From assembly GCA_026399475.1 (NCBI GenBank), contig JAPLQY010000063.1:1-64000 (forward strand): a stretch of 64,000 nucleotides of DNA. The letters run 5' to 3'. Position numbers and translations under genes: made by a program. Position 1 is the stretch's first letter, and each line of letters opens with the position of its first letter. Under the pieces are notes generated by a model. That model had not been told where the DNA came from. It did not search any database and worked only from the letters and a program-made list of their open reading frames with translations. This DNA comes from Rhodocyclales bacterium. GTDB lineage: Bacteria > Pseudomonadota > Gammaproteobacteria > Burkholderiales > Rhodocyclaceae. This document shows positions 23,901 to 56,362 of this stretch, one piece after another.

Positions 23901-24646
23901 CAGACGAAATAGCCTTGCAAGCGGCTTTCAATGATGCGCGGATTGTCGCCATTGGCGATGCCAACCAGGCCATCCACCAGCATTTCCCGCAGGGTGACGA
24001 CACGGGCGATGTTCGCCATCAGCTTCTTGGCGATCGGCAGAAAAATCAGGTTCGCCGCGCCCACGCCATAAATGGTGGCAACGAAAGCCACGGCTATGCC
24101 GCTACCGAGTTTGGTTGGGTCGGACAGATTTTCCATGACATGAATCAGGCCCATCACGGCGCCGATGATGCCGATCGTCGGCGAATAACCTCCCGCCGAC
24201 TCCCATACCTTGGACGCCGCCTTCAGATTGGCCTCCCAGGCACTGATCTCCACCTCCAGCACTTCGCGCAGGCGCTCCGGCTCGGCGCCATCGACCAGCA
24301 ACTGCAAGCCCTTGGCGGCAAACGGGTCGCGCATGGTGCCGATCTGGACTTCAAGCGCGAGCAAACCTTCCTTGCGCGCAAGCTGGCTCCAGTGGGCGAT
24401 GTCGGCAATGACTTTCTGCGGTTCGACGACCGGCGGGAAAAACACCCATTTCGTCATTTTCATCCCGTCCCTGAAAACCCTCAGCGGGCTTTGCAACATC
24501 ACCGCACCCAGGGTGCCGCCGACGACGATCAAAAATGCTGTCGGCTGCACCAGTGAATCGAGGTGGCCACCTTCGAGCACCTGACCGCCGACGATGGCCG
24601 TCAATCCGATAAACAAACCAAGGAAACTGATCTTGTCCATGGCCAT
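23900..24646 (-). CDS. motC: Flagellar motor stator protein MotC (MotA type)
   Basis: Four-helix stator subunit that, with MotD, converts ion flow to torque. 248 residues: helices near 8-25 and 33-50, the cytoplasmic loop (about 60-145), then GYSPTIGIIGAVMGLIHVME and SGIAVAFVATIYGVGAANLI for helices 3 and 4, containing the conserved prolines/threonines of the ion path. Start overlaps the fliA stop (TGATG). Confidence 0.96.
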   Translation of the reverse strand: MAMDKISFLGLFIGLTAIVGGQVLEGGHLDSLVQPTAFLIVVGGTLGAVMLQSPLRVFRDGMKMTKWVFFPPVVEPQKVIADIAHWSQLARKEGLLALEVQIGTMRDPFAAKGLQLLVDGAEPERLREVLEVEISAWEANLKAASKVWESAGGYSPTIGIIGAVMGLIHVMENLSDPTKLGSGIAVAFVATIYGVGAANLIFLPIAKKLMANIARVVTLREMLVDGLVGIANGDNPRIIESRLQGYFV

Positions 24647-25410
24647 CAGGCTCCGCTGCGGGCCGCCGCCGAATCGCGGCGCATCGTGCTGACCGGTCTG
24701 CTTCCACCCGTAACGCTGGCGCGCAAACGGGCGACCGCCTGGCTATGCAATTGACAGACACGCGACTCGGTCACTCCCAGAACTTCGCCGATTTCACGCA
24801 GATTCAAATCCTGTTCGTAATACAGGGCCATCATCAGTTTTTCCCTTTCCGGCAGCGCTTCGATTGCCGTTGCCAGAGCTGCGCGCGTCCCGGCCTCCTC
24901 CAGCAATGCCAGCGGGTCGAGGCCGGTCGACGGCGCATGACGCTCGAGATAGTCGTCGCCGCTGCCATCGGTCATGTCCTCGATATAGACCAGTTGATGG
25001 CCGCGCGCATCGAGCAGCAGCTTCTGGTAGTCCGCCAGGGACATGTCCAGAGCCCCTGCAAGTTCGCCCTCGGAAGGCGCGCGACCGCGTTCGTGCTCCA
25101 GTTTGCGAATCGCCGCCTCGACCCGGCGCATCTCGCGGCGCACGCCACGCGGCAACCAGTCGTTTTCCCGCAAGCCATCCAGCATGGCCCCGCGTATCCT
25201 CTGCACCGCATAGGTTTCGAACTGGGCGCCCAGACCTTCTTCATAGCGATCAAGCGCATCGAGCAGTCCGATCATTCCGTTCTGGATCAGATCATCAACA
25301 TCAACGCTGGCCGGCAGCTTTGCCATCAGCAGGAAAGCGATGCGCTTTACGAGTGGAACGTAACTGGCAACCTGCTGGTCTTTGGCGAGTACGCCCTGGG
25401 CGGTGTACAT
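24646..25410 (-). CDS. fliA: RNA polymerase sigma-28 factor FliA
   Basis: Sigma factor for late flagellar genes (flgM, flagellin and others here). 254 residues with region 2 (DDLIQNGMIGLLDALDRYE, FETYAVQRIRGAMLDGLREN), region 3 (REMRRVEAAIRKLEHERGRA) and region 4 helix-turn-helix (LNLREIGEVLGVTESRVCQL). ATG at 25410 follows an in-frame TTG. Leads the fliA-motC-motD unit and has a 420-bp leader region with a 64-bp repeat. Confidence 0.97.
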   Translation of the reverse strand: MYTAQGVLAKDQQVASYVPLVKRIAFLLMAKLPASVDVDDLIQNGMIGLLDALDRYEEGLGAQFETYAVQRIRGAMLDGLRENDWLPRGVRREMRRVEAAIRKLEHERGRAPSEGELAGALDMSLADYQKLLLDARGHQLVYIEDMTDGSGDDYLERHAPSTGLDPLALLEEAGTRAALATAIEALPEREKLMMALYYEQDLNLREIGEVLGVTESRVCQLHSQAVARLRASVTGGSRPVSTMRRDSAAARSGA

Positions 25411-25486
25411 CAATTCCGTCGCTCCGGCCGTGTTTGGCGCATTGACTGTGGCTTCGCGGAAGGGGCCAGGTGAATTCGCATGCTGG

Positions 25487-25830: not shown

Positions 25831-27129
25831 TCAGCGCCCGACACGCTCCCGCAACACGTAGATCTCCACGCTGCGGCCTGAATCTCGCTCCACGGTGACC
25901 AGTTGGTCTATCAGGCGCCGCTCCAGCGCCGTGCTCTTCGACAGCAGGAGGAAGCCATCGGGGTGCATCACATCCCGTGTCAGCAACATCCCTTCCTGCA
26001 GGTGGCCGGCGCTGACCCTGATCTCGTCGATCTCGTCAGCCTCGTCGAAAGCCAGGAGGGGCTCCAGCCGATCGATGACTGCAGGGTCATAGCGACGGCC
26101 ACGACCCTCGACCAGCGAGCGGTGGCTATTCTTTATCGTCATCGGCGACGTGGTCAGCGCCCCGCTCCTGAAGTCGTCATAGTCGCTGACGGCGGCGATG
26201 ATACGGGCACCCAGGGGGATATCGAGACCACTACGCCTCTCGGGGAAGCCCGAGCCATCATAACGTTCGTGATGGTAGCGGACGATGGGTGCGATATCCG
26301 CCAGGGCCTCTATCTTGGCGAGCGCGTCAGCCCCCCGCGTCGGGTGTCGCCGGTAGATGGCCAATTGCTCAGCAGTCATGGCGTTGACCGGCTTCTTCAG
26401 CATCTCGTCGGGAAAGCTGATCTTGCCGATGTCGTGCAGCAGCGCGGCGACGAACACATCCTGGGCTTCCGCTTCGGTCAGCCCCATGTCGCGCGCCAGT
26501 TGGCGAGACATATCGGCCACGCGGCGGGAATGTTCGCCGATGGAAGCACCGCGCAGCTGAGCCAGGGCGCTGATGGCCATCAGCGTGCCCAGGTACGACT
26601 TCTTCAGGGCCGCATGCGCTGTCTCGGTCTTGTCCAGCGCCAACTTGAGCGCCTGGGTCCGTTCTGCCACGAGACCTTCGAGCCGGGCATTCTGATCAGC
26701 CAGATGATCGCGGGCCGCCTTGAGTTCGAGCTGAGTATGCACTCGGGCGAGCACAATGGCCGGACTGATCGGCTTGGTGATGTAATCGACGGCACCGAGT
26801 TCCAGCCCGTGCTGCTCGTTTTCGCTGGAATCCATCGCCGTGACGAAAATCACCGGCAGTTCGCGGGTCACAGGCGATTCGCGCAGTTTGGCCAGCACCG
26901 TGTAGCCGTCCATCTCCGGCATCATCACGTCGAGCAAAACCAGGTCGGGCCTCGGCGCCGTCCCGACTACCCGCAATGCCTCGGCCCCCGAGCGGGCGAC
27001 GCGGACGCGAAAATGGGGTTGGAGCACCGCGTTCAGCACGCCGAGATTGGCCGGCTCGTCGTCGACCACCAGTATCGTCGCTTCGGCGTGATTCGGTTTT
27101 ATTGGATCAGTCCCGGGCTTTTTGTCCAT
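25831..27129 (-). CDS. Response regulator with degenerate HD-GYP domain
   Basis: 432 residues: receiver domain (about 15-130; LVLLDVMMPEMDGY, with the phospho-acceptor Asp), a coiled-coil linker (about 135-185), an HD-GYP c-di-GMP phosphodiesterase domain (about 195-340) and a C-terminal HD-GYP-associated segment (VSAGHLQEGMLLTRDVMHPD). The metal motif HDIGK is kept and HHERYDGSGFP replaces the usual HHE..DGSGYP. The later DxFDAL-type stretch reads SDYDDFRSG and the following R.Y. segment is lost, so activity may be altered. Last gene of the island operon, 12 bp after the hybrid kinase, its likely phosphodonor. Confidence 0.9.
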   Translation of the reverse strand: MDKKPGTDPIKPNHAEATILVVDDEPANLGVLNAVLQPHFRVRVARSGAEALRVVGTAPRPDLVLLDVMMPEMDGYTVLAKLRESPVTRELPVIFVTAMDSSENEQHGLELGAVDYITKPISPAIVLARVHTQLELKAARDHLADQNARLEGLVAERTQALKLALDKTETAHAALKKSYLGTLMAISALAQLRGASIGEHSRRVADMSRQLARDMGLTEAEAQDVFVAALLHDIGKISFPDEMLKKPVNAMTAEQLAIYRRHPTRGADALAKIEALADIAPIVRYHHERYDGSGFPERRSGLDIPLGARIIAAVSDYDDFRSGALTTSPMTIKNSHRSLVEGRGRRYDPAVIDRLEPLLAFDEADEIDEIRVSAGHLQEGMLLTRDVMHPDGFLLLSKSTALERRLIDQLVTVERDSGRSVEIYVLRERVGR

Positions 27130-27141
27130 TTTTCCGCCTCA

Positions 27142-31724
<4,583 letters not shown>

Positions 31725-31728
<4 letters not shown>

Positions 31729-32768
31729 GTCGGCCCCTTTGCGTCCGGCGCGCCGGCAAAGTCCAGCGCAAACGGCGGCGCCCGCCCGAGTTCGCGCGAC
31801 AGTCCATTCACCTGCTGCTTGAGGCTGATCATTTCCAGCTCACGGCCAACCGTGGCGCGGTTGAAGCGCTCGAGTTCGTCGTTGCGCTGGGCCAGCGCCT
31901 CCGCTTGCTGCCTGAGTTCCGCTGCGGCCCGATACCGCTCGGTGATGTCGCGGGAGATGCCGAACATGCCGATGACTTGACCCGCGCCATCTTGCAGCGG
32001 ACTCTTGGTAGCCAGGTAGGTGCGCTCACCATCCGCGGTGGAGAGCGTTTGTTCGTAAGTATTTATCCTGCTCTCGGCGATTACGCGGCAGTCGTTGTCG
32101 CGAATTATCTTGGCCTGATCTGGTGGAAGCAACGTCGTATCATCGCTGCCGATAATCTGGTCGGCGGACTTGCCGATAAGTCGCTCAAATTCCCGATTGA
32201 CCATCAGGTAGCGGCCCTCCAGGTCCTTGGCATAGATGGAATCACTGGAGCCCTCGACAATGGCCGCCATGATCATCCGCTCCTTTTGCAGGCTGGCTTC
32301 CACCGCCTTGTTCGCCACTCTCAGGGCCTCCTCGGCACGTTTGCGTACCGCGATCTCGGTTTGCAGGGCTTCGTTGGCGTACCTCAGTTGATCTGGGCTG
32401 GGCAGTTTCAGCGCGTGCGGGATCAAGGGCCAGAGCGCGACTGCGGTAAGCACCGAAACGAAGGCGGTAATCGCCTTGAGCAGGGCATCCAGGCCGTACA
32501 TCGGCTGCCACAGCACGATGGCTCCCATCAGGTGGGTCGCGCCGCAGGCCATGATGAAGACGGCGAACAGCCATAGGAGCCAGCGGTAGGGGAAATCCTT
32601 GCGTCGCTGCGCGAAATAGCCGATGGCCACGGGCATGGAAAAATACGAAAGGAAAATCAGGATGTCGCTGGCGACAAAGGTCCATAGCAGCGTCGGCGAC
32701 CAACTGATGCAATACCCGTGAGGAAGATAGCCGTTGACCGCCAGAAGCCGGCTCAGTTCGTCAATCAT
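31725..32768 (-). CDS. Ethylene-receptor-like (ETR1_N) membrane protein with PAS domain, no kinase
   Basis: 347 residues. Three transmembrane helices (about 28-52, 61-85, 95-117) match the ligand-binding domain of plant ETR1 and cyanobacterial Etr1: [13 protein letters not shown] and MACGATHL correspond to SDFFIALAYFSIP and LCGATHL. With a constant offset of 10, Asp35, Tyr42, Pro46, Ile72, Cys75 and His79 align to ETR1 Asp25, Tyr32, Pro36, Ile62, Cys65 and His69, including both copper ligands. A coiled coil (about 125-165), a PAS domain (about 170-290; [20 protein letters not shown]) and a C-terminal coiled coil follow. No histidine kinase domain is present; output must pass to the overlapping hybrid kinase. 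Ethylene itself as ligand is inference; another small neutral ligand is possible. Confidence 0.9.
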
Positions 32769-32843
32769 GAAATTGCCCTCCGGGTGATACCGGGTGCCGC
32801 CATTCGGCGGTCCACCACCGATCCGGCTTGCTCTGGTTCATGG

Positions 32844-34112
32844 CTACGGTGACCGCACGCCTGATAGTGGCGATTCATCAGTTTCGCGGTAACGCTCCGC
32901 AATGGCGACAAACTCGTCGAAACCGGTAAGGAATGCGTCGCATACGTCGGGATCGAAGTGCTTGCCGCGCTCGGCGGCGATGAGGTCGCGGGCCTCGGCG
33001 AACGGCATCGCCGGTTTGTACACCCGCGGCGCAATCAGGGCGTCGAAGACGTCGGCCAGGGCCATCAGTCGCGCGGCAAAGGGTATGGACTCGCCAACCA
33101 GTCCGTCGGGATAGCCGCTGCCGTCCCAGCGCTCGTGATGCCAGTGCGCAATTTCCTTGGCCAGGACAAGAAAGTCGACGGGTTTCTCGGCGTCGGTCTC
33201 GGCCTGCTCGATGGCATCGGAACCGAGCTTGGCGTGGGTCTTCATGATTTTCCACTCTGCCGGTGTCAGCGGGCCGGGTTTCTGCAGGATGCTGTCGGGT
33301 ATGCCGACCTTGCCTATGTCATGCAGCGGCGCGGATTTGGTCAGCAGGTCGATGTTGTGCAGGCTGAGGACTGCAGAAAAGCGCGGATGCGAAGCCAGCC
33401 GCAAGGCCAGGATGTGAACATAGTTCTGCGTGCGGTAAATATGATTGCCGGTCTCGGGGTCGCGTGTCTCGGCCAGGTGCGCCAGCGCCCGGATGCTGAC
33501 GAGCTGGGTCAGATCATTCTCGGCCATGCGCCGGGCCACTTCGGCTTCGAGACTGGCGTTCTGATCCTTCATCCAGTCGCGGGCCTGCTTGGCCTGGAGA
33601 TGAAGGCGTACCCTGGCCTGCACCACAGCAGGCTTGACCGGCTTGGTGATGTAGTCGGCAGCACCGAGTTGCAAGCCGCGCTCTTCGTCCGCCGCCTCGG
33701 CCAGCGCCGTGACGAAAACCACGGGGATGCCGCGCGTGGCGGGGTTCTCGCTCAGCCGCGCCAGCACCTCATAGCCGTCCATCCCGGGCATCATCACGTC
33801 CAGCAGCACCAGATCCGGTCGCGGTTCGCTCGCCACCGCGCGCAAGGCACTTTCTCCCGAGTTGGCGGCGCGCACCAAATACTCGGGCCGCAGCAAAGTG
33901 GTGAGGAGAAACAGGTTGGTCGGCTCGTCGTCGACGATCAGGATGGTCGCCGCGTTCATGGGACGCACCTCGTCCGCGGCATGAGGGCTGATCGCGGCAG
34001 CGCGTGAGCCCATGGACGTGAGGTTTTGCAGCCGCACAAATCCCTCGCCATCTGGTCCATGGATGGACAGCGGTATTGTCGCCGAATCGGTCATCTGCAT
34101 GACTGTGCTCAC
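32844..34112 (-). CDS. Response regulator with canonical HD-GYP c-di-GMP phosphodiesterase domain
   Basis: 422 residues: an unassigned 50-residue N-terminus, a receiver (about 55-170; LVLLDVMMPGMDGYEVLARL) and an HD-GYP domain (about 215-400) with HDIGKVGIPDSILQKPG, HHERWDGSGYPDGL and ADVFDAL all intact, so it should hydrolyse c-di-GMP. Lowering c-di-GMP favours swimming, which fits the location. Start is GTG at 34112; an internal ATG at 33959 with GAGGTG upstream would remove the extra N-terminus and is a real alternative. First gene of the island operon, 100 bp downstream of the second 64-bp repeat. Confidence 0.92.
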   Translation of the reverse strand: MSTVMQMTDSATIPLSIHGPDGEGFVRLQNLTSMGSRAAAISPHAADEVRPMNAATILIVDDEPTNLFLLTTLLRPEYLVRAANSGESALRAVASEPRPDLVLLDVMMPGMDGYEVLARLSENPATRGIPVVFVTALAEAADEERGLQLGAADYITKPVKPAVVQARVRLHLQAKQARDWMKDQNASLEAEVARRMAENDLTQLVSIRALAHLAETRDPETGNHIYRTQNYVHILALRLASHPRFSAVLSLHNIDLLTKSAPLHDIGKVGIPDSILQKPGPLTPAEWKIMKTHAKLGSDAIEQAETDAEKPVDFLVLAKEIAHWHHERWDGSGYPDGLVGESIPFAARLMALADVFDALIAPRVYKPAMPFAEARDLIAAERGKHFDPDVCDAFLTGFDEFVAIAERYRETDESPLSGVRSP

Positions 34113-34350: not shown

Positions 34351-35184
34351 CTACGCCGATTCCAGATGTTTCGGAGCCGCTGCTACAGCAGTTGTGCGTC
34401 GCGCAAAAGGCAGGAATCCAAATCCGTCCCCCTCCTCCGGTGCCGGCGACAGGCGGCTTTGCAGGGCCCCGGCGAGATTGTCCGCCATCGGGACGCGTGC
34501 GCTGCCCAGATATTCCAGACGTACGCCCAAGTGCTCGCGGGCCGTTTGGCGCATGTTGTGAAATATCGCCAGCGCTTCCTGCTCGGTTCGCGCCCGGGTA
34601 ATCGCGACATGAAATCCGTCGCGCCCGCGCTCCTGCGCCAGGCGCTTGATCAAGGCGTAGGCCCGGGTAATTGCCGAGCTTTGTGCCGCGACCACCACGG
34701 CCATGTGCGGCGTGGCCAGTGCCAGCGGCGACAGATGCTGGCCATTGCGCGCGGCGCAGTCGATCAGGACAAAGGAACTGCCTTCCTGCAGCTGCCTGAG
34801 GGCAGCGTCGAGCCGCCGCGCAGCAGGGGCATCGACGTACTGTACATCGGCCGCGAACTTCGCCGCAGACATTACGCTGAGCCGGGCCGCCACGGGTTGC
34901 GCCAGTCGTGCAATCGGGTAGCCGTCGCGCACCAGGTCCAGCAAATCATGCTTCGCCTTCATGCCGAAAGCCGAGTGCACGTTATCGGCACCGGTATTCT
35001 CGTCGATGATCACCACGGCTTGCCCGGCCTCGGCCAGCGCAGCAGCAGTGCGCACCAGCAGCGTGGTGCGCCCGCAGGCTTCGCGCCCCGAGACGAAGGC
35101 GACCACGCGCGCCGCCCGCGCGCCGAACAGGCGCCGCAGTCCGGCGGCCTGATCCGTCGCGGCGCCAGAGATCGAGTCAAGCAA
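34351..35184 (-). CDS. flhG: Flagellar number regulator FlhG (FleN), with altered nucleotide-binding motifs
   Basis: MinD/ParA-like partner of FlhF that limits flagellar number. 277 residues. The N-terminal FlhF-activating motif is present (TDQAAGLRRLFG). The deviant Walker A, normally SGKGGVGKT, reads SGREACGRT: both lysines are replaced. The Walker B-like strand LIDCAARNG keeps the Asp but not the usual TAAG. The C-terminal region (ITRAYALIKRLAQERGRDGF) still matches FlhG. The ATPase cycle may be lost while FlhF stimulation is kept. Overlaps flhF by 8 bp. Confidence 0.9.
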   Translation of the reverse strand: MLDSISGAATDQAAGLRRLFGARAARVVAFVSGREACGRTTLLVRTAAALAEAGQAVVIIDENTGADNVHSAFGMKAKHDLLDLVRDGYPIARLAQPVAARLSVMSAAKFAADVQYVDAPAARRLDAALRQLQEGSSFVLIDCAARNGQHLSPLALATPHMAVVVAAQSSAITRAYALIKRLAQERGRDGFHVAITRARTEQEALAIFHNMRQTAREHLGVRLEYLGSARVPMADNLAGALQSRLSPAPEEGDGFGFLPFARRTTAVAAAPKHLESA

Positions 35185-40016: not shown

Positions 40017-40067
40017 ACGGGGGAAAGCGGGCTGTAAACAGCAGGCTTCCCTGCAGATTTCCCCCGT
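40017..40067 (-). terminator. Rho-independent terminator after the PilZ gene
   Basis: Ten-base perfect arms (ACGGGGGAAA and TTTCCCCCGT) around a 31-base loop that itself contains a small hairpin. On the minus strand the second arm runs into GTTTTTGG. It ends the fliD-to-PilZ transcript just before flhB's own leader. Confidence 0.8.
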
Positions 40068-40870
40068 CAGGCCATCCCCGATTCGCGCGCCTTGCGCTCG
40101 CGTTCGGTCTTGATGATGTAACGCTGAATCAGCCTTGCCATAGGCCCTGGCAGATCGACGAACTCACAAGCGGCTCGCTGGGCGCGGGCTCCGCTGCGGG
40201 TGACGGTTTCCGTCAGCCAGCGCAGGCGCAGGGTAGCGGTGAGCGACCCGACCTCGGGCAACTCGATCTCGCAGCCGGGAAGTTCCATGTCGGTTTCGAG
40301 TGCCAGATTCAGCGGCAGTCCCACCAGGCAAACACCGCCGCCGCTGATGTCGGCAACGTGGGCTTCGATCAGGCGGCTTGAGCCGTCCGCAGCGGCAAAG
40401 CGGAGTTTGCAATTGAGCGGCCGCGTAATGGGCGTGACCAGCCGATAGTTCTCGCGCCGTTGCAAGCGCAGGAGGCTGTCCGGCAGCGCCGCCCGGAACG
40501 ACGAGCGCCCATCGATTTCGACTTGATCGACGCCACGCAGGATGAACTGGATTTTCACTTTCTCGAGCAGGCAATCACAGAACAGTTTGTCCGCTTTCAG
40601 TGCCTTGCGGTTCATCTCCGCGCTTGCGCCAAACTCAAAAACCAGACCGTCGTCACCGTAACTCATCAGACTGGTGAGCACCATGTCGCGTCCTTCATTG
40701 AAGATCATGGTGACTTGCGCTACATGTTCCGCCAGGCCGCGAAAAACGGTAAACATCTCGCTCTTCGTGCGCAACAGGTATTGACTGAATTCGTCGTTGG
40801 GCAGGAGTTCAGCGACGACTTTCTGGGTCGGCGCAGTACCGGAACCGGATTCGGCGATGGGGCTTGTCAT
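40067..40870 (-). CDS. ycgR: YcgR-type flagellar brake protein with PilZ domain
   Basis: c-di-GMP receptor that slows the motor. From the ATG at 40870 it is 267 residues: N-terminal YcgR/PilZN domain (about 30-130) and a C-terminal PilZ domain (about 135-250) with both ligand motifs, RRENYRL and DISGGGVCL. Gene symbol is by family. A TTG seven codons upstream is less likely. Last gene of the fliD operon and a natural target for the c-di-GMP changes made by the HD-GYP proteins of the island. Confidence 0.88.
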   Translation of the reverse strand: MTSPIAESGSGTAPTQKVVAELLPNDEFSQYLLRTKSEMFTVFRGLAEHVAQVTMIFNEGRDMVLTSLMSYGDDGLVFEFGASAEMNRKALKADKLFCDCLLEKVKIQFILRGVDQVEIDGRSSFRAALPDSLLRLQRRENYRLVTPITRPLNCKLRFAAADGSSRLIEAHVADISGGGVCLVGLPLNLALETDMELPGCEIELPEVGSLTATLRLRWLTETVTRSGARAQRAACEFVDLPGPMARLIQRYIIKTERERKARESGMA

Positions 40871-40906
40871 CTCTATGAGCGGGGCGAGCAAAGTGCGTGT
40901 TGAATT

Positions 40907-47232: not shown

Positions 47233-48336
47233 TTACGCCATTTGAATGAACAGGGCGCTACCCGCAACAAATGCGACAGCGATCCCGGAACGATTATCTG
47301 CAAGGAATTCATTTCCTGCGCGCCGGGGTCCATCACCAAAAGGCCAAACGTAGTCGTCAATGACTATCCACCCGCCGGCGATAACAAAACCGCTCCACGA
47401 TGAAATATCAGCTCTCGCAGCGGCATAACCATGATTGCCGTCAACATGCAAAATCGCGATGTCGCCGCGATAGCTCGTTGAACCAAATGATGCAGTAGCG
47501 ACATCCCGGTGCTCACGGTAATACCGTGCGCCATCAGTCGAGGGCATGCGCAAGTAGTTCACATGATTTGAACTGTATGGAAGCAGGTTCATTTCAAAAA
47601 CCGCCAGAGCTTCCTCTGCATCCACTTGCGCAGATCCGCTATCGACCATGCCTTCGCCTTCATGTTGCACCAAATGCTCGTTCGACCAGGGATCGACACA
47701 CAGCAAATTCCCGATTTCGTAGTAGCGGGCAAGCCTGGCCAGGACAAAGGCCGATTTCCCCCACCAGCTGCCGATTTCAACAATGTCTCCGGATACGCCG
47801 CAACGCGCAATCTCATGCAGGGCATCGATTTTTTCGAGGTCACACATGCCGGGAATCTGGTTCGCGTGGTGAAACAGCGCAGCCAGTTCGATTTCGGCCA
47901 TGGCGGGCCGGACCTTCAGGCGCGAGGCCAGTGGCAAAGGTCGTTCAAGCAGAAGGCGCGCACGAACTCGGGCAGCACGGTAACCGGCCAGAACCTCGTT
48001 CACCGGCGAATCATTGACCAGTTTCACGCCTGGAGCAATTCCCGGCAAAGCTCGAGACAGATAGTTCCATACAACCGGGTTCGGAGAATAGATGCCACCT
48101 ATGTCGAAATCCTCAATACCCCGTCGAAGCGCATCGTCGAACCCGGCCTGATTGATATAGGGGAGATGCAGCCACGCAGGGTATTCCCTGCTCGCTACAT
48201 CGTAATTCAATGACGAGGCACCGATGACCGGCAATCCTGCGCGCAGGCATTTCTGCAGGTAGTCAAGCGAGTGCGGCATACCGCCCGGAAAGATCAGGAC
48301 GGGCTTGGCACCATCGCCGCAGTTGTCATTTGGCAT
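47233..48336 (-). CDS. Methyltransferase fused to an N-terminal Rossmann-like domain
   Basis: 367 residues from the ATG at 48336. The first ~120 (VLIFPGGMPHSLDYLQKCLR, VIGASSLNYDVASREYPAWL) resemble the pre-ATP-grasp/Rossmann half of the ATP-grasp protein at 51760 but without a grasp domain. The C-terminal part (about 165-365) is a class I SAM methyltransferase of the Methyltransf_24 type: GDIVEIGSWWGKSAFVLARL for SAM and ILHVDGNHGYAAARADISSW for the metal/catalytic segment. Last gene of the glycosylation operon; probably methylates the glycan. Overlaps the upstream gene by 11 bp. Confidence 0.8.
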   Translation of the reverse strand: MPNDNCGDGAKPVLIFPGGMPHSLDYLQKCLRAGLPVIGASSLNYDVASREYPAWLHLPYINQAGFDDALRRGIEDFDIGGIYSPNPVVWNYLSRALPGIAPGVKLVNDSPVNEVLAGYRAARVRARLLLERPLPLASRLKVRPAMAEIELAALFHHANQIPGMCDLEKIDALHEIARCGVSGDIVEIGSWWGKSAFVLARLARYYEIGNLLCVDPWSNEHLVQHEGEGMVDSGSAQVDAEEALAVFEMNLLPYSSNHVNYLRMPSTDGARYYREHRDVATASFGSTSYRGDIAILHVDGNHGYAAARADISSWSGFVIAGGWIVIDDYVWPFGDGPRRAGNEFLADNRSGIAVAFVAGSALFIQMA

Positions 48337-49114
48337 CAGTGGCTTCGTCGCCTCGCTCGCAAAGCAGGAATATGCTGGAACACAGGTCGGGATACTGCTG
48401 ACCCAGGGCGTAGCAGCCATCCAGATACTCGCGTGAAATGATGTCCGTCTGCAGCAGGCGATCCCACTGAAAGTTCGCCAGCGCCTTGAAGAAGATCCCG
48501 GAACGGTGCACTACCTTCAAACCTGCTGCAACGGCGTCCTGCTCGAGGGTGTCGAGGGAATAAGTACGGCGATGGCCATGCTCGGCTTCGGCCGCAGTTA
48601 CTGCCGCATTGTGGGCGATCAGGCCCATCTTGACCGCGATCTGCCGCGAGGGAGCGTTGGCATTCGGGCACGCCAGGAAGAAGCGCCCACCGTCGGCAAG
48701 CCATTCGTCGTTGATGCGCCTGAGCACTCGCACCGGCTCTTCGAGGTGTTCCAGTACATGGGTCATCACGACATTGTCGTAGCGCCCGGGTAAAGTCGCG
48801 TGCTCGAAAGTCGAGTTGACGAACCGGACCCCTCCTCCCAGTTTGCGCTTCGCCTCGGCGACCGCCTCGGGCGACGCCTCGACGCAGGTGATGTCATCGA
48901 AACGGGGCTGCAGCCTCCGGGTGAAGGCGCCCTCGTAGCAGCCAAGTTCGAGCAGGCTCCCGCTCCTGAAGAAGGGCTCGAAGGACTTGATCATGCAGGG
49001 ATGAATTACGTCGAGGTCGAAGTTGTAAACATAGCGGTCCTTTCCGGGAGCCGCGAATTCGCCCGGTTCCTTGCCGCTACTGTTCGATGAAGTCAATTTC
49101 TTTCTCCTATTCAT
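48326..49114 (-). CDS. Class I SAM-dependent methyltransferase
   Basis: 262 residues. SAM-binding motif LLELGCYEGAFTRRLQPRFD, motif II ITCVEASPEAVAEAKRKL, then VVMTHVLEHLEEPVRVLRRI and the acceptor-side FFLACPNANAPSRQIAVKMG. Starts at ATG 49114; a TTG at 49096 directly behind AGGAGAAAG has the better ribosome-binding site. Very similar in layout to the methyltransferase at 53649 (both end CY/LCEVGIAYPELCS-like), so the two probably modify related sugars. Confidence 0.88.
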   Translation of the reverse strand: MNRRKKLTSSNSSGKEPGEFAAPGKDRYVYNFDLDVIHPCMIKSFEPFFRSGSLLELGCYEGAFTRRLQPRFDDITCVEASPEAVAEAKRKLGGGVRFVNSTFEHATLPGRYDNVVMTHVLEHLEEPVRVLRRINDEWLADGGRFFLACPNANAPSRQIAVKMGLIAHNAAVTAAEAEHGHRRTYSLDTLEQDAVAAGLKVVHRSGIFFKALANFQWDRLLQTDIISREYLDGCYALGQQYPDLCSSIFLLCERGDEATDAK

Positions 49115-49136
49115 GGCGATGGCCGAGTTCCGCAGA

Positions 49137-50114
49137 TCAGCCATTCGGTTCTTTCTCCAGTTCCCGATCCAGCACGGCAAGGCCAAATCCGAGCCGACCG
49201 AATTCGTTGCCGTTGTAGAGCATGTAGACTTTCCCGCTCAGTTCGAAGACGTGTGGGTAACACTGCATTTGCGAATCCCAGCCCGCGTCCGAAATATCGA
49301 TCCCGCCCCTGCTGTCATCGCGTACCCAGTCGATCAGGTCATCGGAAAAGGCGTAGCCGATCCGATACGCATTGTCGCTCTGTTTGCGGAAGCCATGCGC
49401 CTGTCGATAGCAGAAATACATGTGGTAGAGGCCGTCGAGCTGAAAGACCGTCGGCAGGGCCTGGCACTCATCCTCGTTCAGCCTGTCGCTGATGATTTGC
49501 CTCCCGCTTCTGCGCCAGTTCATTCCGTCTTCAGAAGTGGCGTGTGCGATCTTGTACACCCGGTCGGGCGGCTCCGTCGCGTTGAATTTTTTCCAGCGCG
49601 TGCCGAAGATGTACCACATGTGAAACAGCCCGGCGTAGCGCCGAACAAAGGCATCGGCCACCAGAAACGGCTCATTCAAGGACGCCGCCATGATCGGCCC
49701 CCAGCCGAATTTCCGAAATGTCAGGCCCTCGTCGTGACTGATGGCGAGGCCGATCGATGCGTCAGCTGACACCGAGACCTTGCGGTTCCACCCGGTGGTG
49801 AAGGCCAGTATCCGATCTCCATCCCGCAGCACATTGACCGGAAATATCCCGTGCTCGTCGAAACAGCCGAGGCCGCCCAGTTCTATCACCGTGTGCTGCG
49901 ACACGCCGAGGATACGCTGCATGTCCAAATCGAAATCGACGAAGGTGGGATGACTCAGGTACTTGCCGACGCTGTCCCTTTCGCGGGTCGAGCAATACAC
50001 TCGGACACGATCGGCCAGGACCAGGGCCTGTGGCGACTGGGCGAACTCATGGCAATCGTTCGGGAGGGTGTGTTCAGTGGGATCGAATATCCGGCCCAGC
50101 TTGGTCCACTTCAC
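49137..50114 (-). CDS. Beta-propeller glycosidase-like protein (GH43/GH130-like fold), copy A
   Basis: 325 residues of repeated beta-strand units with W/Y-rich blades: FAQSPQALVLADRVRVYCST, IGLAISHDEGLTFRKFGWGP, IAHATSEDGMNWRRSG, IGYAFSDDLIDWVRDDS. The ISHDG/SEDGxxW pattern is typical of five-bladed glycosidase-like propellers. No signal peptide, so it acts in the cytoplasm. Its neighbour upstream is a clear paralogue, and the two genes overlap by 4 bp. Which sugar it handles, and whether it is catalytic, cannot be told. Confidence 0.78.
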   Translation of the reverse strand: MKWTKLGRIFDPTEHTLPNDCHEFAQSPQALVLADRVRVYCSTRERDSVGKYLSHPTFVDFDLDMQRILGVSQHTVIELGGLGCFDEHGIFPVNVLRDGDRILAFTTGWNRKVSVSADASIGLAISHDEGLTFRKFGWGPIMAASLNEPFLVADAFVRRYAGLFHMWYIFGTRWKKFNATEPPDRVYKIAHATSEDGMNWRRSGRQIISDRLNEDECQALPTVFQLDGLYHMYFCYRQAHGFRKQSDNAYRIGYAFSDDLIDWVRDDSRGGIDISDAGWDSQMQCYPHVFELSGKVYMLYNGNEFGRLGFGLAVLDRELEKEPNG

Positions 50115-51085
50115 GGCTTGCTCCTGTCCAGGGGGCCACGCAATCTCGCCAGCCCGATGCCCGCACGCCCCATTTCGTTGCCCTGGTAGAGCATCCAGGT
50201 TTCGTCATCGAGCATGAATACGTGCGGATAATTCACCATTTCCGAATCCCAGCCGCTTGGCGAAACATGCATTCCGGCGACATCGTCACGTCGGGTCCAG
50301 GTCGTCATGTCCTCCGAGAAGGCATAGCCTATGCGGTAGCCACCTTCCTTGCTCCTGTAGTTGTGGATGTCCCGGTACGAAAAGAACATGTGGTACTTCC
50401 CGTCACGAAACAGCACGTCGGGACAGGCCTGGCACTCGTGTTCGCCGAGGCGGCTTTCGATCAGGTCCTTGCCGAACTTGACCCATTCGATGCCGTCCTC
50501 GGAGGATGCCATGCGAATCCGGTACACGGGCTCCGGCCGGCCTTCGGTGCGCAGCCATTCCTTCCCCGATACGTACCACAGGTACCACTTCCCGCCGTAG
50601 TTCCGGATGCGCGGGCTGCCCAGCAAGAAGGGCTCGTCAGGACTGTAGGAGAGTACAGGGCCCTCACCGAGGCGGGTGAAGGACTCGCCACCATCGTGGC
50701 TCACCGCAAGGCCGATAGCGGCATTGAACGGTACTGACTCGCAGCGGGTCCATCCCGCGTAATAGGCACGCACCGCGTCCCCGTCACGGATCACGGAAAC
50801 CGGATAGGTGCCGAACTCGTCGAAACTGCCGCAACCACCGAGACTCAGGACCGGCTTGGGGCAGACCCTGAGGATCCTGAGCAGATTGCTTCGGTCCAGG
50901 TCGATCCAGGAAATGAAACTCAGATACTGACCATCCGCCGCGGGCGCGGGCCTTGAACAGAAATAGACCCGGACACAGGTGTCGAACACCAGCACCGACG
51001 GAGACTGCGCATACTCCTTCATCCAGCTGCCGCCCCCGAGGTCTTTTGGATCGAACAGCTTTCCGAGTTTTTCCCACTGGAACAT
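50111..51085 (-). CDS. Beta-propeller glycosidase-like protein (GH43/GH130-like fold), copy B
   Basis: 324 residues, paralogous to the gene at 49137 over the full length: MFQWEKLGKLFDPKDLGGGS versus MKWTKLGRIFDP, IGLAVSHDGGESFTRLGEGP, IRMASSEDGIEWVKFG, IGYAFSEDMTTWTRRDD. The ATG at 51085 was chosen by alignment to the paralogue; the 10-residue longer reading overlaps the phosphoesterase gene. Likely forms part of the glycan precursor pathway. Confidence 0.78.
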   Translation of the reverse strand: MFQWEKLGKLFDPKDLGGGSWMKEYAQSPSVLVFDTCVRVYFCSRPAPAADGQYLSFISWIDLDRSNLLRILRVCPKPVLSLGGCGSFDEFGTYPVSVIRDGDAVRAYYAGWTRCESVPFNAAIGLAVSHDGGESFTRLGEGPVLSYSPDEPFLLGSPRIRNYGGKWYLWYVSGKEWLRTEGRPEPVYRIRMASSEDGIEWVKFGKDLIESRLGEHECQACPDVLFRDGKYHMFFSYRDIHNYRSKEGGYRIGYAFSEDMTTWTRRDDVAGMHVSPSGWDSEMVNYPHVFMLDDETWMLYQGNEMGRAGIGLARLRGPLDRSKP

Positions 51086-51104
51086 TGCAGCGCCCCTTGT
51101 CCGG

Positions 51105-51782
51105 TCAGTCCGCAAGCCGGCGCAACGTCCTTGCCCCGGTCTTCAAGCCGCCGTAGTAGTAGTCGCCGAATCCGGCGGCCTCCATCAGGTCGAACACCGG
51201 CTGCATGTCGTATGCCACCCGGTGCAGGCGGAACTCGTACCCGTCATGGGTGGCGAAAGCGGCGCGCGGGTCGCCGTCCCGCGGCTGGCCAACGGACCCG
51301 GGATTGCAGTAGGTCTTGGTGCCGAATTGCTGCAGCGTCTGGATATGGGTATGCCCCGAAACAAAAACATCTCCGGGCAGCCTCTCGAAATATTCTGAAC
51401 CAGGCTTGAGGTATTCGTCGATGGGATCGCCCCATCCGCCATGCACCATGTGAATGCCGTCGATGCGCATCTGCAGCGGCAGCGTTCGCAGCCATTCGAC
51501 GTGCTGCGACTCGATGATGCCGCGCTGATAGGCAAGGCAGTCATTGACGCTCCTCGAGCGCGGGCAAAAGCCGTCGCCGGCCATATACCAGTCGTGGTTA
51601 CCCATCACGCTCGGAATGCCTCGCCGGCGCAGCTCGGCACAGCACTCGTTGACCTGCGTGTAGTAACCGACGATATCTCCCGCGCAATACACGCGGCTGA
51701 TGCCGAGCCCGTCCAGCTCCGCCAGCACGGCCTGCAGTGCCTGAAAATTGCCGTGGATGTCAGAGATGAAGGCTGTCTTCAT
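51105..51782 (-). CDS. Calcineurin-like metallophosphoesterase
   Basis: 225 residues with all metal motifs: FISDIHGN, CAGDIVGYY, MGNHDW, MVHGGWGD and SGHTHIQ. The compact form resembles YfcE/MJ0936-type phosphodiesterases. In this operon it might dephosphorylate or hydrolyse a sugar-phosphate or nucleotide-sugar intermediate; that is inference. It overlaps the ATP-grasp gene by 23 bp. Confidence 0.88.
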   Translation of the reverse strand: MKTAFISDIHGNFQALQAVLAELDGLGISRVYCAGDIVGYYTQVNECCAELRRRGIPSVMGNHDWYMAGDGFCPRSRSVNDCLAYQRGIIESQHVEWLRTLPLQMRIDGIHMVHGGWGDPIDEYLKPGSEYFERLPGDVFVSGHTHIQTLQQFGTKTYCNPGSVGQPRDGDPRAAFATHDGYEFRLHRVAYDMQPVFDLMEAAGFGDYYYGGLKTGARTLRRLAD

Positions 51783-52737
51783 AAAATATGCAATCCTCCG
51801 TATAGCGCACCGCCCTGCCGCGCCTGATCACGGGTTGTTGAGGCGTGCGTCTCTCCAGAAAATAGTCCGCCGCCATTGCGCTCTCGTTGTAGCCGAAGGC
51901 TGTCCGGATCGAGGTCGAGGAAGAAATTCTCGGGTTGATTTCCAGCAGCTTGACGTCGCCGGAAGCAATTCTGAACTGGAAATTCGTCGGCCCCACGGGC
52001 TCGAAGGCCTGGCACAGCGAAGACATCGTGGCGATGAATTCGTCGCTGGCCACCACTTCCGCCTTCTCGGTGTAGCCGTCGCGGGACAGTTTGCGCCGGA
52101 GCGTCATGCAAGCATGGAAACCACCCTTGCCGTCGCAGAATGCAGAGCTCGTGAATTCCTCGGCCTCATTGCCGACAATAGGCTGCGCCATCAGGATCGG
52201 ACCAATGTTCGCTTGCTGACGCAAAAAGGCGGCTTCGTCACCGATTTGCACAATGCCCCGGCCGCCGAATCCGCGCCTTGGCTTGAGCAGAAAGGGCAGC
52301 CCGAAGCGCTCCGCCAGTTCGGCGTATTCCGTGCCGAGCGAACTATCGATCCGGCAGGGCATCCCGATGCTGCGCAAACGCTCGTGGAACAGCCACTTGT
52401 CCTGGCACAGGCTCACCAGTTCCAACTTGTTCAGCATGGCAACGGCGCCGGATTTATCGATCTCTTTGGCATGTGCCGCCCAGGCGTGCAGGTCGATTTC
52501 TATGCCCGGAATGACCAGATCGACCTTGTGGCTGGCGATAGTGTTCAGCAGCCAGGGCATGTAGGACGGATCATGGGTGTGCGGCGCCAGCTCAAAGATG
52601 TCGCAGAAACGCGGCGCCACCGAGTCGCCGTAAATCGACGTGCCGATCAGGCGCAGATCCATGCCTGATGATTTCAGGGAGCGGAGAACTCCGTAGCCGA
52701 CGATGCCGCTGGCACCGGACACCAGTATCATCTTCAT
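51760..52737 (-). CDS. ATP-grasp ligase (carbamoyl-phosphate synthase-like)
   Basis: 325 residues: an N-terminal Rossmann-like pre-grasp domain (LVSGASGIVGYGVLRSLKSS, DLVIPGIEID) and an ATP-grasp domain (about 110-290) with GLPFLLKPRRGFGGRGIVQI and the metal-binding VKLLEINPRISSSTSI. Ligases of this kind join a carboxylate to an amine or other nucleophile, so it could attach an amino acid or acyl group to a glycan precursor. ATG overlaps the epimerase stop. Confidence 0.87.
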   Translation of the reverse strand: MKMILVSGASGIVGYGVLRSLKSSGMDLRLIGTSIYGDSVAPRFCDIFELAPHTHDPSYMPWLLNTIASHKVDLVIPGIEIDLHAWAAHAKEIDKSGAVAMLNKLELVSLCQDKWLFHERLRSIGMPCRIDSSLGTEYAELAERFGLPFLLKPRRGFGGRGIVQIGDEAAFLRQQANIGPILMAQPIVGNEAEEFTSSAFCDGKGGFHACMTLRRKLSRDGYTEKAEVVASDEFIATMSSLCQAFEPVGPTNFQFRIASGDVKLLEINPRISSSTSIRTAFGYNESAMAADYFLERRTPQQPVIRRGRAVRYTEDCIFYEDSLHL

Positions 52738-53582
52738 CCGGCAGCCCTTCGCTGGGCCGCTTCCATTTCCATCCCGAGTTCGACAGAAATCCGCGGAAAA
52801 TAATCGATCAGTCGGAACAGCGAATCATCCAGCGGAAACACGCTGTCGGGGATGTCGGCTTCATCGGCGACGAAGCGGATCTTGCCTTTGCTGCCAAAAG
52901 CCCTGGCCGCCGCCGCGGCAAGCTCGGAATAGCGCACATCCCTGGTGTTCATGCAGGTGTAGATGCCTTTCAATTCGCGCTGGACCACCCGCGCAACAAT
53001 TCTGGCCATGTCCTCCATATGGAGAAAGTTCCTCAGCGCATCGTTCGAGCCATGAATCAGGATGTCTGCACCTTCGACAGCCCGTTCGATAATTGCCGAA
53101 AGGAAAGGCTGGTGCCGTCGCCGGGCTTCCCCGACACCGTACAGGCGACCGGGCCGGAGTATGGTTAGCGGCAGCCGGAAACGCGAACTGAAGCCGGTCG
53201 CCAGTTCGTCCCCGTGCCGCTTCGACAGCGCATAGGCACTGAAAAAGGGCGATGTCTCGTCGAGGCCGGCGAAGATACTCGAGACCTGGACCATGTGGCC
53301 AACGCCCGACGCCACGCATGACTGGCAGAGCTTCAGGACGCCGAGGGCGTTCACCGTTTCCATCCGCAGGATATCCTCGAAACTGTCGCCACCGAATTGC
53401 GCCGCAGTGTTGATGACGACATTGATACCCGCGGGAACCAGGAACTTGTCCTGCGCGTCGCTCAAATCCAGCCTGACATCGCAGCCGTGGCGACCGGCGG
53501 TCAGCACCTCGGCGTCTTCCCCGAGAACCGGCTTCAGCGTCTGCGCCAAGGCGGAAGTACCGCCGACAATCAGTATCCGCAT
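52734..53582 (-). CDS. NAD-dependent epimerase/dehydratase (extended SDR)
   Basis: 282 residues. NAD-binding loop is ILIVGGTSALAQTL (a variant of GxxGxxG), then AAQFGGDSFEDILRMETVNA, the active-site YALSKRHGDELATGF (YxxxK) and the extended-SDR proline motif LRPGRLYGVGE. Probably makes or reduces an NDP-sugar for the filament glycan. 66 bp after the methyltransferase gene. Confidence 0.9.
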   Translation of the reverse strand: MRILIVGGTSALAQTLKPVLGEDAEVLTAGRHGCDVRLDLSDAQDKFLVPAGINVVINTAAQFGGDSFEDILRMETVNALGVLKLCQSCVASGVGHMVQVSSIFAGLDETSPFFSAYALSKRHGDELATGFSSRFRLPLTILRPGRLYGVGEARRRHQPFLSAIIERAVEGADILIHGSNDALRNFLHMEDMARIVARVVQRELKGIYTCMNTRDVRYSELAAAAARAFGSKGKIRFVADEADIPDSVFPLDDSLFRLIDYFPRISVELGMEMEAAQRRAAG

Positions 53583-53648
53583 GAAATCCTCACGGCAGCC
53601 ATCTCCAATGGTTGCCCGGACGCGGGCGCAGGGGTGCAGGCGATGAAA

Positions 53649-54371
53649 TCATGTGATGGAAGCTTCGGCGAGGATGCCGCTGCACAGTTCAGGATAGGCA
53701 ATGCCGACTTCGCACAAGCCGCGGATCACCCCATCTTCCAGCTTCAGTGCCAGCATTTGCCCGGTGGTAATCGGCTTCAGGAATATCCCTTCCATGCTGG
53801 CGATACTCAGCCCGGCACGCTCAATTTCCGCGCGCAGTGTGTCAAGGGTGTAATAACGTTTGTGTCCCAACAGTCGATCGTTGTCTGACAGTGCCTCCAG
53901 ATCGTCGAGCATGCCGGCCAGATGCCCGAGTCGCCTGTTCAGTGCCTCGGCATTGGGCACCGCCACGAACATCCGGCCGCCCGGCGCCAGAAAGTCCCGG
54001 TAGCGCCTGATGATGTCCTGTGGGTAATCGACGTGTTCCAGAATGAAGCCCATCACGATCACGTCGAATTTTTCGTCGGTCTGGAACTCCTCGAAATAGG
54101 CTTCGCATATCTCGGCACTACATCGGGGAAAGCGCTGGCGGAAATTTTCAATCACCGCGTTCGACCCTTCCAGCACCAACTGCCGCGTGAAGTGTCTGGA
54201 AAAAATCTCGGTGGCAAATCCGTGGCCCAAGCCGAGCTCAAGCACGGAGCGCGCCGCCGGACTCCTGCCGACGACCCGCTGCGGATACCAGCTCAGCAGG
54301 ATCTCGTTGTCGAAATCATAAGGATTGCGACCCTGATAGGCGGCGACGTGAATGTCCAGATGGTTTGCCAT
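53649..54371 (-). CDS. Class I SAM-dependent methyltransferase
   Basis: 240 residues. SVLELGLGHGFATEIFSRHF is the SAM motif, with FDVIVMGFILEHVDYPQDII and GGRMFVAVPNAEALNRRLGH downstream. A close relative of the methyltransferase at 48326. Sits between epimerase and WbqC-like genes; an O- or N-methyltransferase for a sugar is likely. Confidence 0.9.
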   Translation of the reverse strand: MANHLDIHVAAYQGRNPYDFDNEILLSWYPQRVVGRSPAARSVLELGLGHGFATEIFSRHFTRQLVLEGSNAVIENFRQRFPRCSAEICEAYFEEFQTDEKFDVIVMGFILEHVDYPQDIIRRYRDFLAPGGRMFVAVPNAEALNRRLGHLAGMLDDLEALSDNDRLLGHKRYYTLDTLRAEIERAGLSIASMEGIFLKPITTGQMLALKLEDGVIRGLCEVGIAYPELCSGILAEASIT

Positions 54372-54383
54372 GATGGTGGGTGA

Positions 54384-55118
54384 CTAATCCGCAGTTCCGG
54401 CCGCAATCCCGTCGGCCCCGATCAGGTCGAAGCCCGTCGCGATTGCGGCAAGTGCGCGCTCGCGCGGGTTGAACATCAGAACGTCGATCATCGACAACCA
54501 GGGTACGAAGGAGTCGCCGAACTGCTCATACGCGAATGGTCTCGATTGAAGGAATTTAAGGTCGACACCCTTGTCCCGGAACCCTTCTCTTGAATACAGC
54601 CCCATGCCGCCGATCGCGTTCACATACGTGTCTGCGCCGACCGCCGAACATAGCGCGAGGACCTTGTCCTCGCTCTTCAGCGCATGGTCGATGTCGATGT
54701 CCGAAGATATTCTGATCTCGGTCGCAATCCCAAGATGCTGGCAGGTCTTGACGATGGAGTGATGCAGAAAGCGAAACAGGTTCTGATCAGCATGCTGCAC
54801 GATCTGCTCGATCAATGGAAACGTCGCGCCAAAGTAGGGCGCCCGCCGGTAAGCCTCCCTGAATTGGTTGAGCAGCTTGTCGCGCCGGAAATCCGCCGCC
54901 AGTTCCCGGTCGCAGACATTCAGATCGTCCGATCCCCCTTTCAGCGGCAGCGAGAACATCACGTCCTTGCCATCCTGCAATAGGCGATTCCGGTTGATCC
55001 ATCCCTTCTTCGTGTACTTGATGTTGTCGTACACAATGAACATGTCCACCGCACCGATCAGCTGAAAGTAGCCAATATAGGGGAAGAAGTATGGCTGCAT
55101 GATCGCAAGGCGTTTCAT
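54384..55118 (-). CDS. WbqC-like family protein
   Basis: 244 residues with the WbqC signature start MKRLAIMQPYFFPYIGYFQL, then VYDNIKYTKKGWINRNRLLQ. WbqC genes are common in O-antigen and flagellar glycan clusters next to DegT aminotransferases; the biochemical role is not settled, though acyl transfer to an amino sugar has been considered. The ATG at 55118 gives the canonical start. 7 bp after the aminotransferase gene. Confidence 0.9.
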   Translation of the reverse strand: MKRLAIMQPYFFPYIGYFQLIGAVDMFIVYDNIKYTKKGWINRNRLLQDGKDVMFSLPLKGGSDDLNVCDRELAADFRRDKLLNQFREAYRRAPYFGATFPLIEQIVQHADQNLFRFLHHSIVKTCQHLGIATEIRISSDIDIDHALKSEDKVLALCSAVGADTYVNAIGGMGLYSREGFRDKGVDLKFLQSRPFAYEQFGDSFVPWLSMIDVLMFNPRERALAAIATGFDLIGADGIAAGTAD

Positions 55119-55125
55119 TGACCGC

Positions 55126-56244: not shown

Positions 56245-56362
56245 GTCCTGAGCTCGCCTGTCGGCCTGCAGGACAACTTCAGGTGACGTGTGACATGCCT
56301 GCGCATTCGGCTTGTCGCCTGATGAATGATGCGTGATGCCCTCCGCTGACGTCGCTACCGAC

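Follow-up and report, generated by a model that had tools for sequence, protein, structure and literature searches.

AzoEtr1 of Azospirillum brasilense is an experimentally supported ethylene receptor located at a cell pole, and its loss is reported to leave swimming motility unchanged (PMC11819568). SynEtr1/UirS of Synechocystis carries an N-terminal ethylene-binding-type domain (EBD) fused to a cyanobacteriochrome and a kinase, and acts in phototaxis and biofilm formation, not on flagella (PMC6682694). These two receptors and two from Geitlerinema are described as one-piece kinases, and a review points to a wide range of EBD output domains (PMC7700396). In nitric oxide signalling, HnoX of Shewanella is an auxiliary gas sensor controlling the kinase HnoK and thereby the phosphodiesterase HnoB (PMC8846402). 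The main text of the latter source, a census of c-di-GMP stimuli, does not contain the word ethylene, and within openly licensed papers, as far as their accessible text goes, a literature search returned neither an EBD protein lacking a kinase nor any EBD connected with flagella and c-di-GMP. The EBD itself and its use in bacterial receptors are already known; what is new relative to the earlier observation of the locus described here is that, as judged from sequence comparison, its EBD-PAS gene is a mosaic.

The locus lies in a 64,000-nt stretch of DNA (the window) from a Rhodocyclales bacterium, whose draft assembly comprises 114 contigs, with completeness rated at 100% and contamination at 9.08%. 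The first-pass annotation had placed there an ethylene-receptor-like sensor inside a flagellar cluster, and an open reading frame of 347 aa is indeed found at 31725..32768, on the minus strand with its ATG at 32768 and its stop at 31725; frame 1 of the plus strand is interrupted by stops over this interval. The features are as follows.

24646..25413, minus strand: fliA sigma factor gene, downstream flank of the block (NCBIfam PRK06986, 300 bits, cut-off 201)
25831..27129, minus strand: response regulator REC-HD-GYP 2, 432 aa, with HDIGK and a GFP variant
27142..31728, minus strand: hybrid histidine kinase, 1528 aa, its ATG overlapping the stop codon of the EBD-PAS gene
31725..32768, minus strand: EBD-PAS-tail protein, 347 aa, consisting of EBD, signalling helix, PAS and C-terminal tail without a kinase (from ORF, Pfam and model)
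31728..31880, minus strand: C-terminal tail, from about residue 297, a conserved end of detached sensor proteins
31929..32255, minus strand: PAS domain, residues 172-280, nearest to the PAS of detached two-helix-PAS sensors and their kin
32275..32795, minus strand: approximate mosaic segment (27 nt upstream, EBD and linker), its boundaries uncertain by some tens of nt
32391..32690, minus strand: EBD, residues 27-126 (Pfam match 32403-32690 and residues)
32844..34112, minus strand: response regulator REC-HD-GYP 1, 422 aa, with canonical HDIGK and HHERWDGSGYP
34351..35184, minus strand: flhG/MinD-type ATPase gene, upstream flank of the block, following flhF (sub-cut-off MinD matches; congener homologues lie beside flhF)
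40067..40891, minus strand: YcgR-type flagellar brake with PilZN and PilZ (Pfam 73.2 and 29.4 bits, both over cut-off)

The ethylene-receptor type of the N-terminus, proposed earlier, is borne out by the Pfam model ETR1_N (PF25487), which matches residues 27-122 with E=4.5e-37 and 126.7 bits (cut-off 27). As also noted before, the protein has a PAS domain (PAS_4 at residues 172-280, 72.9 bits) and lacks a kinase, with neither HisKA nor HATPase_c found in it by Pfam and with the matches of NCBIfam kinase models staying under cut-off and confined to the PAS and adjoining helices. Without a kinase in the same protein it is no ethylene receptor histidine kinase; it has the layout of a detached sensor, a kinase-less sensor whose gene stands beside a kinase gene. 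Like AzoEtr1, it combines an EBD-type domain and a PAS in a flagellated proteobacterium and a two-component context, and D35, C75, H79 and K98 stand at identical numbers in both; AzoEtr1, however, has its own kinase followed by a solo REC, whereas the EBD-PAS protein has a separate overlapping kinase gene as its likely partner, HD-GYP regulators and a Met in place of Ile35 (PMC11819568). With SynEtr1/UirS it shares the N-terminal EBD and a putative tie to motility behaviour (PMC6682694). The HnoX-HnoK-HnoB and NosP-NahK-NarR systems share the succession of a detached gas sensor, a kinase and a REC-phosphodiesterase acting on c-di-GMP, but use haem (HNOB) or FIST sensors for nitric oxide instead of an EBD (PMC8846402), and the EBD-PAS unit would follow an HnoX-type logic with an ethylene-type head. 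Within the genus, six operons with a REC-HD-GYP gene, a two-helix-PAS gene and a kinase gene (L115-L119 and L121) have the same gene order, the PAS with its tail and an HD-GYP regulator, with the kinase joined by a 4-nt overlap in five of the six. They differ in the head, where a two-helix membrane segment that has no Pfam name takes the place of the EBD, and among them the N-terminus type of the window's kinase is found beside the sensor only in L118. We favour, at even chances, the reading that the EBD-PAS protein is a detached receptor subunit with a recombined EBD head, gating the overlapping hybrid kinase and the HD-GYP phosphodiesterases, with an output on the flagellar motor or a motile-to-sessile switch.

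The flagellar setting stands as first described, FlhB, FlhA, FlhF, a MotA-type motor protein, MotD and FliA all being identified by NCBIfam models above their cut-offs; flhG is named from its position and weak MinD-type hints. Along the minus strand the order is YcgR-type gene, flhB, flhA, flhF, flhG, REC-HD-GYP 1, EBD-PAS, hybrid kinase, REC-HD-GYP 2, fliA, MotA-type gene and motD. A gap of 75 nt separates REC-HD-GYP 1 from EBD-PAS, the next gene is the hybrid kinase, whose overlap, noted in the first-pass annotation, measures 4 nt, and 12 nt further on follows REC-HD-GYP 2, itself 417 nt from fliA. The c-di-GMP hydrolases proposed earlier correspond to two REC-HD-GYP genes that bracket the EBD-PAS/kinase pair, and both products have the HD and GYP motifs and phosphorylatable REC of HD-GYP phosphodiesterases, canonical in regulator 1 and with GFP instead of GYP in regulator 2, whose best NCBIfam match is the NosR family at 310.8 bits, under the cut-off of 400. 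The kinase consists of about seven hydrophobic segments, five PAS stretches, HisKA (SHEIRTP), HATPase, REC and Hpt (HALKG), so that, with the REC-HD-GYP motifs, the parts for a His-Asp-His-Asp relay to c-di-GMP hydrolysis are present. The PilZN-PilZ protein reaches 71.2 bits with the NCBIfam YcgR model, under the cut-off of 400, and is by its domains likely a c-di-GMP effector on the motor in the same cluster.

It is possible, if rather doubtful, that the signalling operon landed by accident between flhG and fliA and has no flagellar tie, its output being bulk c-di-GMP or biofilm formation. Among congeners, 19 others have flhG, of which 16 were examined; in three of these the contig ends after flhG, and in the 13 that carry flhG and fliA on a single contig, the two genes are 34-773 nt apart without any EBD or HD-GYP match between them, so that the insertion appears so far only in this genome. 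Operons of like composition also stand elsewhere, one of them in the same genome (L119). The block is, however, co-oriented with the flanking flagellar genes and lies in the midst of them, the cluster also encodes a YcgR-type c-di-GMP brake, and HD-GYP activity generally favours motility, all of which count against an accidental landing. Given the unchanged swimming of A. brasilense on AzoEtr1 loss, an effect on motility should not be taken for granted.

In two congeners (L156:2428-2793; L164:12280-12645) the flhG-fliA interval holds a lone REC gene, and it therefore takes up signalling genes. A foreign island was considered from composition and rejected, the GC content being 0.59-0.66 over 22-40 kb without a step. 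Counts of promoters and terminators match those of shuffles (2 versus 2.1 and 8 versus 8.6); sigma-28-like patterns were absent, and loose sigma-54-like patterns were found inside genes only. Past the flagellar genes, positions 47233-62169 of the window hold two TPR proteins of about 1000 aa each and several sugar-/methyl-transferase-like ORFs, and from these ORFs, read by eye, this is perhaps a flagellin glycosylation region.

In the EBD, all six residues named in the first-pass annotation are kept at an offset of +10 from ETR1, as D35, Y42, P46, I72, C75 and H79, in an alignment with a hand-entered ETR1 sequence; C75 and H79 are the equivalents of the copper ligands Cys65 and His69. The constancy of this offset holds for helices 1 and 2 and fails in helix 3, where it becomes +7 and where K98, S105 and P117 are further kept equivalents (of K91, S98 and P110). 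The position of ETR1 Ile35, missing from the earlier list, is occupied by Met45. In 64 aligned rows, which take in duplicates and the hand-entered ETR1 and count the window among the Met rows, this column has Ile in 41, Met in 22 and Leu in 1, and all nearest relatives of the window's EBD have Met. Tyr32 is a residue that we take to be essential for ethylene binding by ETR1. Ile35, Pro36, Ile62, Cys65 and His69 are reported as essential for it (PMC6586836), and Asp25 is named as essential as well (PMC11819568). Of these seven binding-essential residues six are kept, the exception being Ile35. Across the 127,996 residues of all six frames of the window the exact-spacing residue pattern turns up once, and of 100,000 shuffles of the protein 0 contained it; by this rarity the spacing is not a matter of chance.

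The check by structure prediction that had been proposed agrees with an N-terminus of three transmembrane helices: AlphaFold2, run with a 19-sequence alignment (mean pLDDT 84.3, pTM 0.49), models helices at 25-55, 62-85 and 91-112, and beyond the EBD a long helix at 125-173, a PAS fold at 177-274 and a C-terminal helix at 276-326. A sequence search of solved structures gave none at E<=1 for residues 1-126, and with the whole protein chains were matched over the PAS half only.

An unlikely but by no means far-fetched alternative is that the EBD of this clade is a copper-dependent membrane sensor for some other small ligand, or for copper itself, in an otherwise unchanged circuit. Methionine can ligate Cu(I), and the window shares Met at the Ile35 site with every one of its nearest relatives (22 of the 64 rows); moreover, the 26 record titles examined include no plant source, most being metagenome bins with the habitat unstated in the title. 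Such a change of ligand is opposed by the retention of the C65, H69, D25, Y32, P36, I62, K91, S98 and P110 equivalents and by the ethylene binding shown for receptors from one proteobacterium and from cyanobacteria (PMC11819568, PMC6682694).

Matches to ETR1_N occur in 16 of 369 genomes of the class (12 over cut-off), in 27 of 399 of the order (25 over cut-off) and in 12 of 101 among relatives (11 over cut-off), the window's genome being counted each time, and a search of 14 control genomes gave zero matches. The 57 distinct EBD ORFs, window included, carry HATPase_c in 39 cases, HisKA in 38 and GGDEF in 11 (E<=0.001). Among individually inspected EBD proteins, those of the window, L028, L031, L035 and L048 were without kinase and GGDEF, and L035 may carry a diverged kinase. 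L028/L197 was dropped as a kinase-less EBD-PAS candidate, its C-terminus running out of frame into a kinase fragment; at L012:10001-12062 and L197:6638-8535 the reading frame of the EBD protein is lost ahead of the kinase part, and the latter resumes in an overlapping frame. Fusions of the EBD to c-di-GMP enzymes were also seen, namely EBD-GAF-GGDEF diguanylate cyclases and one EBD-PAS-GGDEF-EAL protein (L056, L061, L066, L068, L071; L003:8735-11269). With GGDEF in 11 of the 57 EBD proteins, EBD and c-di-GMP may be linked more widely.

The last 46 residues of the EBD-PAS protein match the ends of two-helix-PAS proteins, and a search with the 55-aa tail gave 28 matches in 16 of the 31 genomes of the genus. 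Across the examined stretches, 27 ORFs are tail-ended in the sense that they stop no more than 60 residues from the tail motif. Of these, 17 directly precede a kinase gene, 5 precede another tail-ended sensor and 4 some other gene, and in 1 the contig ends first (one row was reassigned by hand); a 4-nt overlap joins 15 of them to the next kinase or sensor gene. HD-GYP or EBD genes partly guided the choice of these loci, which are not a random sample, and the window is one further case beyond the 27. Included in the 27 are the kinase-less EBD proteins L031 (198 aa) and L048 (334 aa) of other genera, which end in a comparable tail, with a kinase gene 3 nt and 23 nt further on, respectively. There are exceptions to the rule: one of the 27, the ORF L262 8269-10410, is itself matched by the kinase query and the REC query, and a tail-like motif in L265 and L266 lies far from the stop, 416 and 414 residues before the end. 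The tail would thus be a mark, albeit an imperfect one, of detached sensors working with the next kinase, and from this association it may be presumed to dock on the kinase. A tail-ended protein of 464 aa at L254 has the membrane N-terminus of the window's kinase and no kinase match, and at L254:7688-11567 three consecutive tail-ended sensors without a kinase match, joined by 4-nt overlaps, precede a kinase, a REC and a hybrid kinase.

Comparison along the gene points to its composite origin, in which the two-helix head of a sensor already lacking a kinase seems to have given way to an EBD cassette of roughly 0.5 kb. The closest EBD, at 92% identity over 114 columns, is that of L002 from the same genus (gene layout as in G773:C111, L111), where it heads a 731-aa EBD-PAS-kinase-REC protein convergent to a homologous pair of REC-HD-GYP and hybrid-kinase genes. 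In 25-residue steps, protein identity to L002 is 88, 92, 92, 96, 84, 76 and 60% over residues 1-175 and 40, 24, 32, 44, 36, 0 and 0% beyond them, and that to the two-helix-PAS protein of L118 is 0, 0, 0, 8, 40, 24 and 32% and then 64, 40, 52, 76, 44, 76 and 55%; by domain, identity to L002 is 84-96% in the EBD and drops to 24-44% in the PAS, where that to L117/L118 rises. The DNA, taken in 50-nt steps, is 68-84% identical to L118 over 33974..~32880. Over 32795..~32246 identity to L002 is 80-92% in 8 of 11 steps and 68-78% in the other 3 (linker), as against 24-46% to L118 and 32-54% to L119 of the two-helix-PAS operons. Over 32274..31517 L118 reaches 60-82% in 13 of 16 steps, the others being 50, 42 and, in the last partial step, 16%. 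The contrast is modest over the early PAS, where L002 still gives 50-62%, and hence the second breakpoint is not sharp. The segments matching two-helix-sensor operons are the preceding HD-GYP gene, the PAS with the tail and the start of the kinase gene. In a quick tree built from 76 PAS domains, which has few columns and is weakly supported, the window's PAS stands beside those of two-helix-PAS and related proteins, and forcing it together with 11 EBD-linked PAS domains changes the log-likelihood by -121 and is rejected (p-AU 3.2e-6).

An unswapped operon is found elsewhere in the same genome, where L119 comprises REC-HD-GYP, a 282-aa two-helix-PAS protein and a kinase; L118, from another congener, has the same order and a kinase that shares 61% identity with the window's kinase in the membrane N-terminus. 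Tail-ended detached sensors lie directly upstream of intact EBD kinases in three congeners (L117:13851-18054; L261:2366-6902; L264:1-2556), an adjacency that is the sort of setting from which the swap could arise. The L002 genome has a second EBD start at L023:8462-8659 (= L080, G773:C159), 91% identical over residues 1-66 and ending at the contig edge. From the match of PAS and tail, the kinase-less design is native to detached-sensor subunits and involves no truncation, which strengthens the inference that the EBD-PAS protein signals through the neighbouring kinase.

A mosaic of this kind might also be a recent recombinant that is expressed yet uncoupled, with the kinase relying on its own membrane and PAS domains; we consider this improbable. 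In its favour, the gene is known from a single genome, and the kinase itself contains about seven hydrophobic segments. Against uncoupling, the frame is intact, the 4-nt overlap with the kinase is kept, the PAS and tail, which lie nearest the kinase, are native parts, and dN/dS is about 0.13 for the EBD versus L002 (150 codons) and 0.29-0.35 for PAS and tail, the EBD being, on this ratio, under purifying selection. Still less credible, and in our estimate very improbable, is an assembly error joining genes of different organisms or operons: the draft state in 114 contigs, the 9.08% contamination and the multi-copy REC-HD-GYP genes of many genomes of the genus, which invite misjoins, speak for it, but the frame is open across the junction and the overlap intact, the flanking flagellar genes match the genus, and the EBD-PAS gene is the sole ETR1_N match at E<=0.001 in its assembly, with no second (donor) EBD. 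A truncated ethylene-receptor kinase that lost its kinase part by mutation, for which HATPase_c in 39 of the 57 surveyed EBD proteins might be cited, is scarcely conceivable and largely contradicted by the mosaic, the C-terminus being a conserved native end common to other detached sensors and the PAS and tail being nearest to a family other than EBD kinases.

Under the favoured reading of a detached receptor subunit, a small gas, most likely ethylene, would be bound on Cu(I) held by Cys75 and His79 and would alter the conformation of helix 3 and the signalling helix. PAS and tail would then pass the signal to the hybrid kinase, translated together with the subunit, and through its His-Asp-His relay this kinase would phosphorylate both REC-HD-GYP regulators and thereby change c-di-GMP hydrolysis. 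Because of the flhG-fliA position and the YcgR-type brake in the cluster, the output would probably fall on the flagellar motor, via that brake, or on the motile-to-sessile switch. We infer the ligand, the copper, the direct kinase contact, the sign of the effect and the motility output from this arrangement of parts. The interpretation given in the first-pass annotation survives with respect to the EBD with its copper-ligand Cys and His, the PAS, the lack of a kinase, the kinase overlap, the HD-GYP flanks and the flagellar cluster, which also encodes a YcgR-type PilZ protein; the Met at the Ile35 site and the unchanged swimming of A. brasilense without AzoEtr1 speak against a plain transfer from ETR1. 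Several findings count against the favoured reading, namely the change of Ile35 to Met45, the unchanged swimming on AzoEtr1 loss, the kinase's own membrane N-terminus and five PAS stretches, by which the hybrid kinase may need no EBD-PAS subunit, the flhG-fliA placement in a single genome whose assembly is rated 9.08% contaminated, the promoter counts at chance level and the exceptions to the tail rule. A bolder version, by which an ethylene-gated, kinase-free swapped subunit controls a flagellar-cluster c-di-GMP circuit via the YcgR-type brake, with the tail as a general coupling element and heads swappable like cassettes, is put forward only tentatively, and we lean against it.

The mosaic, as reconstructed here, shows exchange of a sensor domain, with donor-like and recipient-like genes within one genus, and the short C-terminal tail points to detached sensors, though imperfectly. 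If the favoured reading is true, a receptor head on an exchangeable subunit would tie ethylene sensing to swimming, and ethylene or a like gas would be a motility signal.
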